From assembly GCA_024275045.1 (NCBI GenBank), contig JAJRZX010000086.1, positions 1-48,840 on the forward strand: a stretch of DNA of 48,840 nt, read 5' to 3'. Below the pieces are notes generated by a model. The model had not been told where the DNA came from. It worked only from the letters and a program-made list of their open reading frames with translations, and did not search any database. Positions 20,848 to 27,503 of this stretch are shown in pieces. The translations under genes were made by a program, and so were the position numbers. Numbering within the stretch: the stretch's first letter is position 1; the number at the start of each line of letters is the position of its first letter. This DNA is from Deltaproteobacteria bacterium. Lineage in GTDB: Bacteria > Desulfobacterota > GWC2-55-46 > JADFVP01.

Positions 20848-22209
20848 TTAGAAAAAACACTCTATTGCTTCCTGAACAGTGCTTACGCCTTTAAGGACCA
20901 TGTGTTTTGGTGCCTTAAGGCCCTTGAGGTTGCCGCAGGGGAGTATGCACCTTGTAAAACCCAGCTTCGCGGCCTCTGCCACCCTCTCGCCGGGCCTGCC
21001 CACGGCACGAACCTCTCCTGTGAGCCCTACCTCTCCAAATACCACTGTCTTTGCATCAAGGGGTTTCTCAAGGTAATTGGAGGATACAGAGGCGATAATG
21101 GCCAGATCCGCCGCCGGCTCGGTAAGCCTTATGCCTCCGGCCACCTTCACAAAGATATCAAAATTATTAAGCACAAGGGACGCCTTTTTCTCCAGCACAG
21201 CCGCGAGTATCATAACCCGATTATAATCCACGCCAACAATAGTACGCCTCGGCACGCCGAAGTTAGTGGGACAGACCAATGACTGCACCTCTACAAGTAC
21301 GGTACGGGTTCCCTCCAGGCTTGGCACAACCGCAGAGCCCGTTGCCCCAAGGGGCCGCTCTGCAAGAAAGACCTCCGATGGGTTCAGCACCTCTTTAAGC
21401 CCGGCCTCCGTCATCTCAAAGATACCCGTCTCCATTATGGAGCCGAAACGGTTCTTAACGGCACGAAGCAGCCTGTAGAGATGATCTTTATCCCCCTCGA
21501 AGTACAGCACAGTATCCACCATATGCTCCAGCGTCTTTGGCCCTGCTATAAAACCCTCCTTTGTAACATGGCCGATGAGAAAGAGCGTGGCGTCCAGACT
21601 CTTTGCCTTTGCTATCAGCCTCGCAGAGGTCTCCCTGAGCTGCGTGAGAGAGCCTGCCGAGGCCTCGCACTCAAGGGTAAAGAGGGTCTGCACGGAATCG
21701 ATGACAATGGCCCCGGGAGATGTGCTCTTAATGGCCTCAAAGACCTTCTCAAGGCACGTCTCCGCAGCTACGACTACTCTGTCCGAGGAGATACCAAGCC
21801 TCTCTGCCCGCATACCTATCTGGCGAAGGGACTCCTCGCCTGTTACATAGAGTACTGTTCCGCCGCCTGCCGCAAAGGTGCCCATGGCCTCCAGTATAAG
21901 CGTGGACTTTCCTATGCCGGGCTCTCCGCCTATAAGTACGGCGCTGCCCGGCACCATGCCTCCGCCAAGGACCCTGTCAAACTCAGCCGTACCCGTGAGC
22001 TCACGAAATACATCCGTGCCTGTAAGCCCGCTAAGTGGCAGGGCCACTACCTCTTCGCCTTTAAGAGAGACCTTGGTGCGCGGACTCTCTGCAACCCGCT
22101 CCTCTGTGAAGGAGTTCCACGCAGAGCACCCCGGGCACTTACCAAGCCATTGCAGGGAGGTATGACCGCAGGACTGACAACTGTACTGAACCCTCTGTTT
22201 TTTACTCAT
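20848..22209 (-). CDS. radA: DNA repair protein RadA (Sms)
   Basis: 453 aa, standard length. RadA is a RecA-like, DnaB-type ATPase that drives branch migration in recombination. The order is: zinc ribbon Cys11, Cys14, Cys25, Cys28; Walker A GEPGIGKST around residues 95-103; the RadA motif KNRFG at 252-256; and a C-terminal Lon-protease-like domain without the catalytic Ser-Lys function (SSNYLEKPLDAKTVVFGEVG). No SD stronger than AAAG before the ATG. Leads the minus-strand run radA-Crp-kinase-pfkA, but is separated from Crp by 136 bp with a promoter. Confidence 0.95.
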   Translation of the reverse strand: MSKKQRVQYSCQSCGHTSLQWLGKCPGCSAWNSFTEERVAESPRTKVSLKGEEVVALPLSGLTGTDVFRELTGTAEFDRVLGGGMVPGSAVLIGGEPGIGKSTLILEAMGTFAAGGGTVLYVTGEESLRQIGMRAERLGISSDRVVVAAETCLEKVFEAIKSTSPGAIVIDSVQTLFTLECEASAGSLTQLRETSARLIAKAKSLDATLFLIGHVTKEGFIAGPKTLEHMVDTVLYFEGDKDHLYRLLRAVKNRFGSIMETGIFEMTEAGLKEVLNPSEVFLAERPLGATGSAVVPSLEGTRTVLVEVQSLVCPTNFGVPRRTIVGVDYNRVMILAAVLEKKASLVLNNFDIFVKVAGGIRLTEPAADLAIIASVSSNYLEKPLDAKTVVFGEVGLTGEVRAVGRPGERVAEAAKLGFTRCILPCGNLKGLKAPKHMVLKGVSTVQEAIECFF

Positions 22210-22336
22210 TCTTTACTCATAAGAGCATAACTTGACCGGTGCTGCTTCATCAAAAATAACCGGTAAATAAAATGTGTTCAACTCCATGCGGGACCGGGGA
22301 AAAGTCACCATAAAGCATGGAAAAAACCATATAAGA

Positions 22337-22364
22337 TTGACAAAAAAGGCTGTTTTGTTATGAT
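22337..22364 (+). promoter_or_regulatory. strong promoter of the HEAT/HD-GYP unit
   Basis: Perfect TTGACA at 22337-22342, 16-bp spacer, TATGAT at 22359-22364 (5 of 6). Start of transcription near 22371, leader about 26 nt. The next entry, a perfect palindrome, covers the end of the -10 box and the expected start point. Confidence 0.65.
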
Positions 22365-22384
22365 AAGTTAAAATTTTAACTTAT
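22363..22384. promoter_or_regulatory. perfect 22-bp palindrome, possible operator
   Basis: ATAAGTTAAAA at 22363-22373 is followed without a gap by its exact reverse complement (22374-22384). It overlaps the -10 box and the +1 site, the typical place for a repressor operator, and is too AT-rich and close to the gene to be an intrinsic terminator. I saw no second copy elsewhere in the window. Confidence 0.5.
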
Positions 22385-22396
22385 GGGACATAAAAA

Positions 22397-23995
22397 ATGG
22401 ACTCGGGTACGGCGACTCCAACAACAATACTAAATGAACTGAACAAGGCTGTCAAGATGCACAATTTCTACCCTTCCGGCCACCCTCACTTTGAAACAGC
22501 CCTTGGCCAGTGCTTTGATCACATAAAGCACTGTGTCGATGATATGGGTGTAATTAAATACTCGGTAAACAACAAGGGTTTTAAGTGCGCCTCAGAGCGC
22601 ATTGGCCTTGATTCCAAAGAGATAGGCGAGCTTGCGAAAAAATTCTTCATCAGAAAAATAAAAGAGCTGGAGATAACATCTCGGCTGAGAGTGGATGATA
22701 TAAAGGAGCTAGTTGATATACTGCGCCTGGAACCCTCGGAGATCTCCGCCGCAGGAGGCATAGAGCGGCTCTTTGCCGAGAGGGGCGTAGAGGGACTGCT
22801 TCTTAACGAGATGCATTACGAGGGTCTTAAAAGACTAAAAGCAGAGCTTCAGCAGCAAAAAGCCGAGGTGAGCAACTCACTCGCCTCAGAATCAGGTCAA
22901 GAAGAAATATCCGTTGAGGACGGCACCGGGCAAGAGGTAACTGATGCGTCTCAAGAGGGTGAGGCAAGAGACGAGACCCTCATGGAGATGATTGAAAAAA
23001 TAAGGTGCGAGAAGGATCTCTTAAAGTACAAAGACCTCTCTGTAAGAATTAAAGAGCGCTGCGGAGCCCTTATAGCCATTAACTCCCTTGATGAGGTAAT
23101 ACCGGCAGTCTTTTTATTCATGGAGCTCTCAGGACCTGAGTCACAACTGGGTAGAGACTTTACGGCAATGGCCAGAACTCAGCTGAGATCCCTTCTTGAG
23201 TCAGCTACGCTTTTACGCCATATTGCCCACAGGGCCGGAAGTAAAGAAGAGCTCAACCGTGAGCTCATAGAGCAGTGCCTTCTCAACGCAGCGGATACGG
23301 CCATAGTCATTAATATCCTCCTTGATGACGCTGTTCAGGCCCCTGAGGCCATAGTACGGCGAAATATTTTCAATACCCTCCTGCTCTTCAAAGACAAGCT
23401 AATACCTTTCATTGAAGAGAGGATAAAGAGCGGTGTCTGGTATGAGGTGCGCCAGATGGCCGCCCTGCTCGGCGAGATAGGAGATGCAGAGAATCTCCCT
23501 CTCCTTGAGGAGATATACAGCCATGATGATGTTAAGATAAAAAAAGAGGCCCTTAAAAGCCTTGCGCGCATACCCTCGGCAGAGGCCGCGGCCTTTCTCT
23601 CCCGCGCGCTCACTGAAGAAGACAGCTCACTGGTATCACAGGCAATAGTCTCACTTGGATTTCTCCGTGACACATCAGCGCTTGAAAGCATTAGTGAGAT
23701 AGCCGTTAAATGGGAGGCCTTTGCCAAGAGCCATAACCTTCAGAAAGAGGCCATAAAGGCACTCGGCAATATAGGCAGCAGCGACTCTGTACCGGCGCTC
23801 AGCCGTATACTCATGAGAAAATCATGGTTCAGCAAACAGTATAATGATGAACTTCGCGCACTGGCGGCAAAGTCTCTTGGCATGATAGGAGACCAGGACG
23901 CATACAAGGCCCTTGAGCAGGCCATGAAAAACAGCGAAGGCGCTCTCTATGCCACGTGCAAGAGGGCCTTAGAGAGAAAAGACGGAGAAAATTAA
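22397..23995 (+). CDS. HEAT-repeat protein with HD-GYP-partner N-terminal module
   Basis: 532 aa, no signal peptide or membrane helix. Residues about 8-150 form a helical module with FYPSGHPHFE (24-33) and RVDDIKELVDIL; the same pattern opens the next gene. A Gln/Glu-rich linker (about 150-195) leads to a helical region and then HEAT repeats (about 320-530; YEVRQMAALLGEIGDAENLP, ALKSLARIPSAEAAAF, AIKALGNIGSSDSVPAL). HEAT arrays usually bind proteins. So it is a cytosolic scaffold, probably partner of the HD-GYP protein 3 bp downstream. Function unknown; family seen in Nitrospirota- and deltaproteobacteria-type genomes. Weak SD GGGA before the ATG. Confidence 0.75.
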   Translation: MDSGTATPTTILNELNKAVKMHNFYPSGHPHFETALGQCFDHIKHCVDDMGVIKYSVNNKGFKCASERIGLDSKEIGELAKKFFIRKIKELEITSRLRVDDIKELVDILRLEPSEISAAGGIERLFAERGVEGLLLNEMHYEGLKRLKAELQQQKAEVSNSLASESGQEEISVEDGTGQEVTDASQEGEARDETLMEMIEKIRCEKDLLKYKDLSVRIKERCGALIAINSLDEVIPAVFLFMELSGPESQLGRDFTAMARTQLRSLLESATLLRHIAHRAGSKEELNRELIEQCLLNAADTAIVINILLDDAVQAPEAIVRRNIFNTLLLFKDKLIPFIEERIKSGVWYEVRQMAALLGEIGDAENLPLLEEIYSHDDVKIKKEALKSLARIPSAEAAAFLSRALTEEDSSLVSQAIVSLGFLRDTSALESISEIAVKWEAFAKSHNLQKEAIKALGNIGSSDSVPALSRILMRKSWFSKQYNDELRALAAKSLGMIGDQDAYKALEQAMKNSEGALYATCKRALERKDGEN

Positions 23996-23998
23996 AGA

Positions 23999-25339
23999 AT
24001 GTTTGGAGACGACATATTAAAAAGTCTTAACAGCGCGCTAAGGGGAACAAGATTATACCCTCCGGGTCATCCCGCCATAAAGTCAAGCGCTGAAAAGACG
24101 ATCCTCTTAATGGGTAAACTCTTAAACGAGGAGGAAAACTTTCTCATCGGACTTGTGGAGGGGGCCATTATCTTTGATGAAGACCCCATGCCCGAGAGCG
24201 AGAGATTGTACCCCGAGCTTATAGCGGTAATGAGAGAAAAAAACCTCGCCTCAATTATCTTTGAGCGCGGGGTAAAAGCGCAGGAACTGAGCGCCCTTAT
24301 TGATATACTCACCGGGCCGCCCGTGATAGAGCAAAAACTCAGGAATACACTCTCCGCAAGCGGTGTAACCCGTATATCGGTGAAGTTTGCAACCGAGGAG
24401 GAGGGTAACTTTCTTGAGGTATACAACGGGGCCATTGATGCCGTAATAAATGCCATGGACGAGGTGAGGATGGGCAAGATCCCCTCATCCGGGCCCGTAA
24501 ATAAAGTAACGGACGAGCTGGCTGAGGCAGTCCTTGATGACAGGGACGCAATGATCGGCCTTGCCATGATAAAAAACTACGACAACTACCTCTTTAACCA
24601 CTCTGTTAATGTGGCCATACTCTCAGTCTCACTTGCCGGGGCTCTGGGACTTAGTAAAGAACAGATTCATAATACAGGCGTAGGTGCCATACTGCATGAC
24701 ATCGGTAAAACAGGTGTGGCGGAACAGATTATCCGCAAACCCGGCGGCCTCAGCTCTGAGGAGTGGCAGCAGATTAAGGCCCATCCTCAGTTGGGAGCCG
24801 ATATAATCAAGAGAATGGACGGCATGGAGGCGGTTATCGCCAGCATAGTCTATGAGCATCATATCAAGTATGACGAGACAGGTTACCCCGAGGAGCACGG
24901 CGAGCTTCACCCCCTCAGCCAGATAATCACCATATGCGATGCCTACGACGCACTTACTACCCTGCGCGTATACCAGAAACCCCACAACCCCGCCGAAGCC
25001 CTTAAGATTATGAATAATTTTTCAGGCAAGACCTTTCACCCTGACTTTCTCAAGACCTTTACAGATATGATAGGCATCTACCCCGTGGGCACCCTTGTGC
25101 GCCTCTCCACCAACCATTTAGGCATTGTCACAAAAGTCTCCACCGATACACCGTCACGGCCTGTACTTAAAATAATCGTAGACGCCGCCGGAGCTAAGAC
25201 AACGCCGCCAATCGTACTTGACCTTACCGAGGAGAGCAATAGCGAGAGCACTATTATCGCCACGGTAAACCCCGCGAGTCTTGGCATTGAGCTTGGTGAG
25301 TTCTTTAAAAAAGAGGCGGCAGCAGAGGGTAGCAGCTAA
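23999..25339 (+). CDS. HD-GYP domain protein, putative c-di-GMP phosphodiesterase
   Basis: 446 aa. The N-terminal module (about 1-150) begins LYPPGHPAIKSSA (19-31), like the preceding HEAT protein. HD-GYP domain about 175-360: LFNHSVNVAILS, GAILHDIGKTG, HPQLGADI, YEHHIKYDETGYPEE (the GYP motif), and ICDAYDALTT. A small C-terminal domain follows. HD-GYP proteins hydrolyse cyclic di-GMP to GMP. Metal residues look intact. The ATG lies 3 nt after the HEAT gene stop, so the two are cotranscribed, and the shared module suggests the pair works in one complex. Substrate and input signal unknown. Confidence 0.85.
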   Translation: MFGDDILKSLNSALRGTRLYPPGHPAIKSSAEKTILLMGKLLNEEENFLIGLVEGAIIFDEDPMPESERLYPELIAVMREKNLASIIFERGVKAQELSALIDILTGPPVIEQKLRNTLSASGVTRISVKFATEEEGNFLEVYNGAIDAVINAMDEVRMGKIPSSGPVNKVTDELAEAVLDDRDAMIGLAMIKNYDNYLFNHSVNVAILSVSLAGALGLSKEQIHNTGVGAILHDIGKTGVAEQIIRKPGGLSSEEWQQIKAHPQLGADIIKRMDGMEAVIASIVYEHHIKYDETGYPEEHGELHPLSQIITICDAYDALTTLRVYQKPHNPAEALKIMNNFSGKTFHPDFLKTFTDMIGIYPVGTLVRLSTNHLGIVTKVSTDTPSRPVLKIIVDAAGAKTTPPIVLDLTEESNSESTIIATVNPASLGIELGEFFKKEAAAEGSS

Positions 25340-25531
25340 GTCTCAGGCGCAGTGATACCGGCCAACAATCCCAAGGCCGCCATCCGCCGGGACCTCTACG
25401 AAATATATTAACCCCTCAAAAAACCTCTGCAACATCAAATTAAGATATCGGCCCTGTACCGGATTTACGGGCGCACAGGGCACTTTCTTTATCACCCAAT
25501 TACCTCATAAGCAGCGCATAACACAAAAAAA

Positions 25532-25548
25532 CCCTCAAGATCTGAGGG
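25532..25548 (-). terminator. terminator after the HEAT-repeat gene (minus)
   Basis: On the minus strand CCCTCA-GATCT-TGAGGG followed by seven T. It lies 43 bp beyond the stop of the 25591-26157 gene. Confidence 0.8.
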
Positions 25549-25590
25549 CCTGCGATTACAATCATCTTAAGCTAAACGCGTACCTGCCTC

Positions 25591-26157
25591 TCAGGAGTCC
25601 ATTACTCCAAGAGCCCTGATGGCAGAGGTCTGCATCTTGTGATTTCCCTTGGCGGCAAAATGCAGCATTGCCTCTTCCGCCCTTTTATCACCCATGCTGC
25701 CTATAACATCAATGGCCCGCTCCACAACACCGGGGTCATCGCTCTTTAGAGCGCGCATAAGAGGGCCAAGCACACGGCTGTCAGTGTACCGGCCTATGGC
25801 CTCCACAGCGGTCCTTACAACTATTGGGCTCTCGTCTCCAAGCACATCCACAAGCAGAGCCAGCACGCCCTCGTCCCTCATACTCCCGAGAGCTCGTACT
25901 GTAGAGGCACGCACATCCTCAGAGGGGTCTTTAAGTGCCTTTGCGAGAATATCTATAATCTTGCTGCCCTTAAGTTCTGAGATGGCATATACGGTGCGTA
26001 TCCTATCGAGCAGCTCACCCTCTGTAAGGACTTTGACCATGTAGTCAAGGTTTGAGCGCACCTGCAGTCTCTCAAGGGCCTCGGCCGAGAGAGAGCGTAT
26101 CTCAACGTCCTCACACTGAAGGTCTTTAATAAGAATCTCTTTTCTTTTATCCATCAT
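25591..26157 (-). CDS. HEAT-like repeat protein downstream of trmFO
   Basis: 188 aa from ATG 26157; a GTG at 26163 would add two residues and neither has a clear SD. About five HEAT/PBS-lyase-like repeats: SAEALERLQVRS, IRTVYAISELKGS, VRASTVRALGSMRDEGV, RTAVEAIGRYTDSRVLGPL, AIDVIGSMGDKRAEEAML. A soluble solenoid without enzyme motifs, probably a protein-binding scaffold. It follows trmFO by about 20 bp on the same strand. Function unknown. Confidence 0.75.
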   Translation of the reverse strand: MMDKRKEILIKDLQCEDVEIRSLSAEALERLQVRSNLDYMVKVLTEGELLDRIRTVYAISELKGSKIIDILAKALKDPSEDVRASTVRALGSMRDEGVLALLVDVLGDESPIVVRTAVEAIGRYTDSRVLGPLMRALKSDDPGVVERAIDVIGSMGDKRAEEAMLHFAAKGNHKMQTSAIRALGVMDS

Positions 26158-26183
26158 AGCCACGTCTGTAATTTTATACTATT

Positions 26184-27503
26184 TCATCCTTTACTTGCAA
26201 GAATTTTATCCCGCCAGGACCTCATCCGCTCTACTGCCAGCCGGGCCTGGGCACGCCGTCTGTCTCGGCGCTTCTTTATACCGGTTATACCCGGCAGAAG
26301 ACCGAAGTTGGCGTTCATGGGCTGAGGGGTCGTCTCTCTCGGCGCGCTGATATAACGAAGCAGCGCTCCTGTCATGGTATCCGCAGGCGGGGTTACAGGA
26401 GCCCGGCCGAGGCAGCGGCGCACCGCGTTAATCCCCGCGATTATCCCAGAGGCCCCGGACTCGCAGTATCCCTCAAGGCCCGTAAGCTGACCGGCAAAAA
26501 ACAGACCCTGCTCTGCCCTTAACTCAAGTGTGCTCTCAAGGACCTCAGATGCGTTTATGTACGTATTCCTGTGAAGTTTGCCGTAACGTACAAACTCTGC
26601 ATTTTCCAGCCCCGGAATCAGCCCGAAGACTCTGGCCTGCTCGGGAAAGGTCAAGCGTGTCTGAAAGCCCACCATATTATAAAGAGTGCCTCCGGCGTTC
26701 TCTTTCCTCAACTGAACTATTGCGTAAGGCGGACCGTTTTTTACCTGTTCACTAAACCCAACGGGACGAAGCGGGCCAAAGGCAAGTGTAGCCACCCCCC
26801 TCTCGGCCATGGACTCAATAGGCATACAGCCCTCAAATAGGGCCGTGGGCTCAAAGGCACGGGGAGTAACCCTCTTTGCAGAGGTAAGCTCATGGACAAA
26901 CCTCTCGTAGCCTTCTTTATCAAGTGCGCAGTTTATATAATCAGCACCGCCCTTGCCGTAGCGTGAACCAAAAAACGCCTTACCCATATCTATGGACTCA
27001 AACGTCACCACAGGAGATACTGCATCGTAAAAAAAGAGCGAGTCCTTGCCAAGTAGCGACTGAATGGAGGCGGCAAAGGGCTCTGAGGTCAGCGGTCCCG
27101 TGGCTATTATAAGGGGCCTTGCCGATGGGATATGCTCTATCTCCTCCCTTATTATCTCAACGCCTTTAGCTTCAAGCGCCTCTGTAACCAGACAAGAGAA
27201 GGCCTCTCTGTCAACGGCAAGGGCCGCACCTGCGGGCACTCGGGTCTTTAAGGCCGTCTCCATAATAATAGAGCCAAGCTCCACCATCTCGCCCTTAAGC
27301 GCGCCATGAGCCGTATCACCGCCAAGGGCTTTAAGTGAGTTGGAGCATACCAGCTCGCCAAGGCCCTCCATTGTATGGGCCTCGGAGTACCTCAGCGGTT
27401 TCATCTCATAAAGAGTTACGGCAAGCCCAAGAGACCTTGCCATGCAGGCCGCCTCAATACCGGCTAGCCCGCCTCCAATAACAGTAACCCTGCTCTTGTT
27501 CAA
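26184..27503 (-). CDS. trmFO: methylenetetrahydrofolate-tRNA-(uracil-5) methyltransferase
   Basis: 439 aa from TTG 27503, chosen because GGAGG lies 8 nt upstream and the conserved N-terminus starts there (VTVIGGGLAGIEAA, FAD-binding). The longer frame to 27692 has unrelated residues. TrmFO methylates U54 in the tRNA T-loop using methylenetetrahydrofolate and FAD; it replaces the SAM-dependent TrmA in many Gram-positive and deltaproteobacterial lineages. Family motifs also include FGPLRPVGF and GYCESGASGIIAG near the C-terminus. Followed by the HEAT protein on the same strand; divergent from the acylphosphatase gene. Confidence 0.93.
   Translation of the reverse strand: MNKSRVTVIGGGLAGIEAACMARSLGLAVTLYEMKPLRYSEAHTMEGLGELVCSNSLKALGGDTAHGALKGEMVELGSIIMETALKTRVPAGAALAVDREAFSCLVTEALEAKGVEIIREEIEHIPSARPLIIATGPLTSEPFAASIQSLLGKDSLFFYDAVSPVVTFESIDMGKAFFGSRYGKGGADYINCALDKEGYERFVHELTSAKRVTPRAFEPTALFEGCMPIESMAERGVATLAFGPLRPVGFSEQVKNGPPYAIVQLRKENAGGTLYNMVGFQTRLTFPEQARVFGLIPGLENAEFVRYGKLHRNTYINASEVLESTLELRAEQGLFFAGQLTGLEGYCESGASGIIAGINAVRRCLGRAPVTPPADTMTGALLRYISAPRETTPQPMNANFGLLPGITGIKKRRDRRRAQARLAVERMRSWRDKILASKG

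Follow-up and report, generated by a model that had tools for sequence, protein, structure and literature searches.

Two adjoining genes of a deltaproteobacterium, one coding for a HEAT-repeat protein and the other for an HD-GYP domain protein, share a homologous N-terminal module with a YPxGHP motif, and the two genes stay side by side in the same order across several bacterial phyla. On balance we consider it somewhat probable that they form a paired cyclic-dinucleotide unit, in which a phosphodiesterase and a HEAT regulatory scaffold would be joined by their YPxGHP modules. This reading draws on the strict pairing and order of the genes, their tight coupling, the common module, the existence of chains with tandem modules and the company of other cyclic-dinucleotide proteins; its computed basis is the homology of the modules, the kept gene pairing, the intact catalytic residues and the fusions of the module with GGDEF and PilZ domains.

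The locus and its proteins

The window, which is the whole stretch of DNA analysed (48,840 nucleotides), belongs to a 2.28-Mb draft genome, and in the search with the HD-GYP alignment its closest named relatives are GWA2_54_12, GWB2_55_19 and the like, all uncultured “Deltaproteobacteria”. As the earlier note had reported, the HEAT and HD-GYP genes lie 3 bp apart, both on the plus strand (Table 1). A promoter-like TTGACA-16-TATGAT with an extended TG is found at 22337-22364, 32 bp before the start codon of the HEAT gene. Promoter and terminator scans of the region gave site counts no higher than those in shuffled sequence, and Rfam had no match within 21900-26300.

Table 1. Features of the HEAT/HD-GYP locus, in window coordinates
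Feature	Position	Strand	Basis
HEAT-repeat protein, 532 aa	22397..23995	+	ORF; Pfam HEAT_2; AlphaFold2
Shared module of HEAT protein, YPSGHP at residues 25-30	22418..22867	+	A5 profile match E 4.7e-40; hhalign to HD-GYP module
Flexible (disordered) linker from module to HEAT repeats	22895..22978	+	pLDDT <50 at residues 168-190
HEAT solenoid, residues 195-531	22979..23989	+	Helix pairs mostly pLDDT >90; Pfam HEAT_2 and HEAT_PBS
HD-GYP protein, 446 aa	23999..25339	+	ORF; Pfam HD_5; AlphaFold2
Shared module of HD-GYP protein, YPPGHP at residues 20-25	24008..24442	+	A5 profile match E 4.3e-38
HD-GYP catalytic domain, H201/H233/D234/K237/H262/H287/H288/G295-Y296-P297/D314	24518..25072	+	Invariant, n=76; PDB relatives 4mcw, 5z7c; Bd1817 fold match
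C-terminal beta-rich segment of HD-GYP protein, residues 362-446, PVGTLVRL...	25082..25336	+	Strands at residues 366-423; kept in relatives
Small HEAT protein, 190 aa, tail-to-tail with the HEAT/HD-GYP pair, probable third member	25591..26163	-	Pfam HEAT_2, 136 bits
radA, divergent, upstream of the HEAT/HD-GYP pair	20848-22209	-	Window position

The HEAT protein scores 81.7 bits against Pfam HEAT_2 (cut-off 27.7), and AlphaFold2 models its alpha-solenoid with confidence (mean pLDDT 89.3), with fold matches to CpcE/F, alphaRep and karyopherin. The HD-GYP protein is likewise well above the Pfam cut-offs, with 76.6 bits for PF13487 (HD_5; cut-off 27.2) and 63.7 for PF01966 (cut-off 22), and its AlphaFold2 model has a mean pLDDT of 87.5. 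Its catalytic residues, including the GYP motif, are the same in all 76 sequences aligned, that is, in the window protein and 75 relatives. The usual HD-GYP signature is HHExxDGxGYP. Here it reads HH[IMVL]xxDxxGYP: the Glu after the two His is absent from 76/76 sequences, so that the full HHExxDGxGYP is not present, and since this Glu is missing family-wide while GYP is intact, we label the protein an HD-GYP domain protein with a variant signature rather than a textbook member. Four residues ahead of the first His, at position 197, 76/76 sequences have Tyr; in the trinuclear enzyme PmGH the equivalent position is Glu, and the replacement makes a two-metal site likely in the HD-GYP domain predicted here.

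One module at two N-termini

The earlier note had proposed that both proteins begin with the same module of about 140 residues, and had named a profile comparison showing unrelated N-termini as the result that would speak against it. Direct BLASTP of the two N-termini aligns only a 25-residue stretch around YPxGHP (10/25 identical, E 2e-5 in a single comparison), and as the comparison of two sequences is thin evidence by itself, profiles were used to decide. A profile of 34 HD-GYP N-termini (A3) aligns with one of 36 HEAT-protein N-termini (A4) over 142 columns at a probability of 98.6% and E 6e-16, where 30 column shuffles of A4 peak at 2.2% (E 0.022) and the reversed profile reaches 0.2%. 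The profiles are thus related and the two modules are homologous over the whole of their roughly 140 residues, a size that had been estimated correctly. Searches in both directions agree: the HEAT-module profile matches 77 of the 80 HD-GYP proteins and the HD-module profile 69 of the 70 HEAT proteins (E<1e-3), and module searches of single genomes also give cross-matches between the two kinds. In the AlphaFold2 models of the full proteins, the elements of both modules follow the order a1-a2-b1-b2-a3-b3-a4-a5-b4, and the “ELxDIL” likeness pointed out earlier turns out to be the a4 segment, KELVDIL in the HEAT protein and SALIDIL in the HD-GYP protein. In an alignment of 57 modules, Tyr25 and Pro26 are invariant, His29 is nearly so, and a downstream GG is the majority pair.

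Sequence profile searches of Pfam, NCBIfam and the PDB returned no entry that covers the module; a PDB match of its profile to Octarellin was dismissed, this being a designed protein. Fold searches with the full-length models were filled by matches to the HD-GYP and HEAT parts. In a tree built from 109 modules, 5 changes account for the distribution of HEAT and HD-GYP contexts, where shuffles need 36.7; this is what one would expect if an old duplication had been kept as a pair. The deepest split of this tree has an SH-aLRT of 91, under the level taken as reliable, and the modules of Omnitrophota and of single-chain proteins fall on the HD side.

Pairing and neighbourhood across phyla

A second outcome that the earlier note held to count against it was that the two genes should not be neighbours in relatives, and this too was looked for: the genes adjoin both in relatives and in distant phyla. 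Among 59 relatives, the HD-GYP module occurs in 54 and the HEAT module in 53, and in 40/40 regions fetched from relatives the two genes adjoin on one strand with the HEAT gene first, mostly with a 4-bp overlap. Farther afield, 80 named loci were picked by the HD-GYP alignment alone, and pairing was counted in the 72 whose upstream sequence extends for 900 bp or more. A module-bearing gene lies directly upstream of the HD-GYP gene in 70 of these, and the two exceptions (L135 and L152) have a HEAT gene truncated by the start of the contig. The paired loci include Geobacteraceae (Geomonas, Geobacter), Omnitrophota, Actinomycetota (Coriobacteriia), Bacillota (Clostridia) and Armatimonadota, and a Methylomirabilota locus (L171) has a module-bearing HD-GYP protein at which its contig begins.

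Within the phylum, the A5 profile finds the module in 53 of 118 sampled genomes. The 131 modules found there comprise 47 adjacent pairs, in 46 of which the longer gene comes first, 2 pairs arranged in tandem within a single chain, and 33 single modules. Some of the singles (L235, L261, L269 and L270) adjoin an HD-GYP gene with a weak module; others truly stand alone, in proteins that have HEAT repeats or lack any Pfam domain. A strict rule by which module genes are always paired was rejected on account of these singletons, and pairing is therefore not obligatory. The other HD-GYP loci of the host genome are without the module. The lasting adjacency, together with a common module across phyla, suggests an unrecognised two-part signalling device.

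The pair often has further company. At 76/103 loci with room for it, the HD-GYP gene is followed immediately by a convergent gene for a homologue of the small HEAT protein. This figure is useful as a fraction rather than as a count, since several regions are present in duplicate among the 103 loci. The homologue was seen in Geobacteraceae, Methylomirabilota and Armatimonadota and was not found at the Omnitrophota, Coriobacteriia or Clostridia loci among the 103. Going by this gene order, the small HEAT protein is probably a third component. The gene radA is found at 79/119 loci, Geomonas included, and its like placement in the window and in Geomonas, divergent and upstream of the pair (850-2202 at L165, the locus of the cultured Geomonas sp. 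Red32), points to an old neighbourhood.

Readings of the pair and known systems

The module also occurs in other architectures. Two proteins of 1414 aa (L219 2530-6774 and L220 2367-6611) are built as GGDEF-AAA_16-module-module-HEAT, an unusual single-chain architecture in which tandem modules are followed by HEAT repeats, and two further proteins as GGDEF-AAA_16-module-HEAT. Another two (L231 5920-8676 and L232 3080-7456) read module-HEAT-cNMP_binding-PilZ and so combine two receptor domains for cyclic nucleotides within a single protein. As the module shares chains with GGDEF or PilZ and with HEAT repeats, it belongs to cyclic-dinucleotide signalling and, judged by domain content, is an accompaniment, usually together with HEAT repeats, of the enzymes predicted to make or degrade cyclic dinucleotides and of their predicted receptors. 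With 7 GGDEF and 10 PilZ loci, the host genome probably has c-di-GMP signalling. A set of module carriers of about 740 aa (L256 3683-5902 and L266 3829-6057) has no Pfam domain; by eye, their C-terminus resembles a degenerate GGDEF domain, and their genes adjoin a protein-kinase-like gene, with recR nearby.

A paired signalling unit of a phosphodiesterase and a scaffold, which was the overall interpretation of the earlier note, is borne out in part: it fits the invariant catalytic residues, the modelled solenoid and the occurrence of the module with GGDEF and PilZ, while dimerisation through the common module is what we infer from the adjacency, the ancient paralogy and the two tandem-module chains. 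We propose that the HD-GYP protein would act as a phosphodiesterase for a cyclic dinucleotide, probably c-di-GMP, though the substrate may be c-di-GMP, cGAMP or another, and that the HEAT protein would be its dedicated regulatory scaffold. Each protein would contribute one YPxGHP alpha/beta module, the two copies binding each other, so that the HEAT solenoid on its flexible linker could either switch the enzyme or set it beside a target; the small HEAT protein encoded convergently is the probable third component of this putative unit. Several points speak against the paired unit: a conserved operon need not code for a complex, 33/131 modules are unpaired, part of these next to a weak HD-GYP partner, and the module tree has its limited support at the deepest split and the Omnitrophota and single-chain modules on the HD side. 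More tentatively, and with rather more doubt than confidence, the YPxGHP module may serve in several phyla as a dedicated pairing domain, which would amount to a general and so far undescribed way of controlling c-di-GMP signals: HEAT scaffolds would be tied through it to HD-GYP enzymes in trans, to GGDEF enzymes in cis and to PilZ receptors, and in many lineages a convergent gene would supply a third HEAT subunit.

The module could instead be a sensor of a ligand or a membrane component. Each protein would then use its own copy, perhaps as a homodimer, to sense one common signal; the HD-GYP protein would alter messenger levels and the HEAT protein would act on a separate target, the two being co-expressed without forming a heterocomplex. 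Such a role accords with the N-terminal place of the module, the position of an input domain, in most chains, with its internal place in the GGDEF-AAA chains, with a nearly invariant Y-P-x-x-H and downstream GG that make up no obvious catalytic set, and with the existence of partnerless singletons; we nevertheless find it rather unlikely, as the ordered pairing, the frequent 4-bp overlap over several phyla and the tandem modules are better accounted for by a partnership. Less probable still is a role of the HEAT protein as downstream adaptor, recruited by the HD-GYP protein through other surfaces, with the HEAT solenoid resting on the GYP surface and the modules being structural parts of their own proteins. 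In its favour are the nature of HEAT solenoids as platforms for binding, the invariance of the GYP motif and the precedent of RpfG, whose HD-GYP domain binds partner proteins, but such an adaptor leaves the same module in the partner unexplained. That the two genes are an ordinary operon without joint function, their common N-terminal domain a product of chance domain shuffling, is very improbable, for even if two carriers of so widespread a module (53/118 genomes) could meet, they do so in the same order at 70/72 loci across phyla, and the host's other HD-GYP loci lack the module.

The reading as a paired unit matters for what it would offer. HD-GYP enzymes are abundant and, to our knowledge, for many of them no regulator is known; a partner gene that carries the enzyme's own N-terminal domain would be a concrete, testable candidate regulator for one large HD-GYP group. 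If true, the occurrence of the module with GGDEF and PilZ would mean that c-di-GMP networks of environmental bacteria are commonly linked through it. The module merits a Pfam entry, from which many “HEAT repeat protein” annotations could gain a working hypothesis. To the earlier note the analysis adds the wide distribution of the module, its further architectures and the third, convergent HEAT gene that accompanies the pair.

HD-GYP enzymes and HEAT scaffolds are already known, and what appears new here is the YPxGHP module, the pairing rule and the convergent third gene, none of which turned up in Pfam, NCBIfam, the PDB or the literature covered. That literature consisted of freely readable journal papers and gave no description of these three; the publications joining HD-GYP and HEAT repeat were judged unrelated from their titles and abstracts. 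The PADLOC models of anti-phage defence gave generic HEAT and HD matches only. The PBS-lyase-like HEAT proteins CpcE and NblB have the same type of HEAT repeat as the window protein (PF13646, PF03130), and a role as phycobilisome lyase or NblB was rejected, the NCBIfam scores being 42.7 against a cut-off of 300 and 28.8 against 330, with the module absent from those models. On the enzyme side, the best NCBIfam match is to the RpfG-type, response-regulator HD-GYP proteins (NosR family, NF053512), but its 82 bits fall far short of the cut-off of 400, cover the HD-GYP domain only, and come from a protein without a receiver domain. DUF3391, the N-terminal domain of other HD-GYP proteins, matches the module weakly in 8/34 relatives (best E 6e-4) and the window protein not at all at E up to 1.

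The closest likeness is to the HD-GYP phosphodiesterases of solved structure (PmGH 4mcw, Bd1817 3tm8, PA4781 4r8z and V-cGAP3 5z7c), which have the same catalytic fold and residues as the window protein. Bd1817 is its best fold match (Z 25.5, rmsd 2.7 over 217 residues), and PmGH matches it both in fold (Z 20.0, rmsd 3.2 over 183 residues) and in sequence (E 1e-31). The window family differs from the usual enzymes in having I, M, V or L after HH in 76/76 sequences and an added C-terminal beta-rich segment, and whereas the N-terminal module is absent by sequence from the solved enzymes, the window protein has both the module and an adjoining gene for a HEAT partner.
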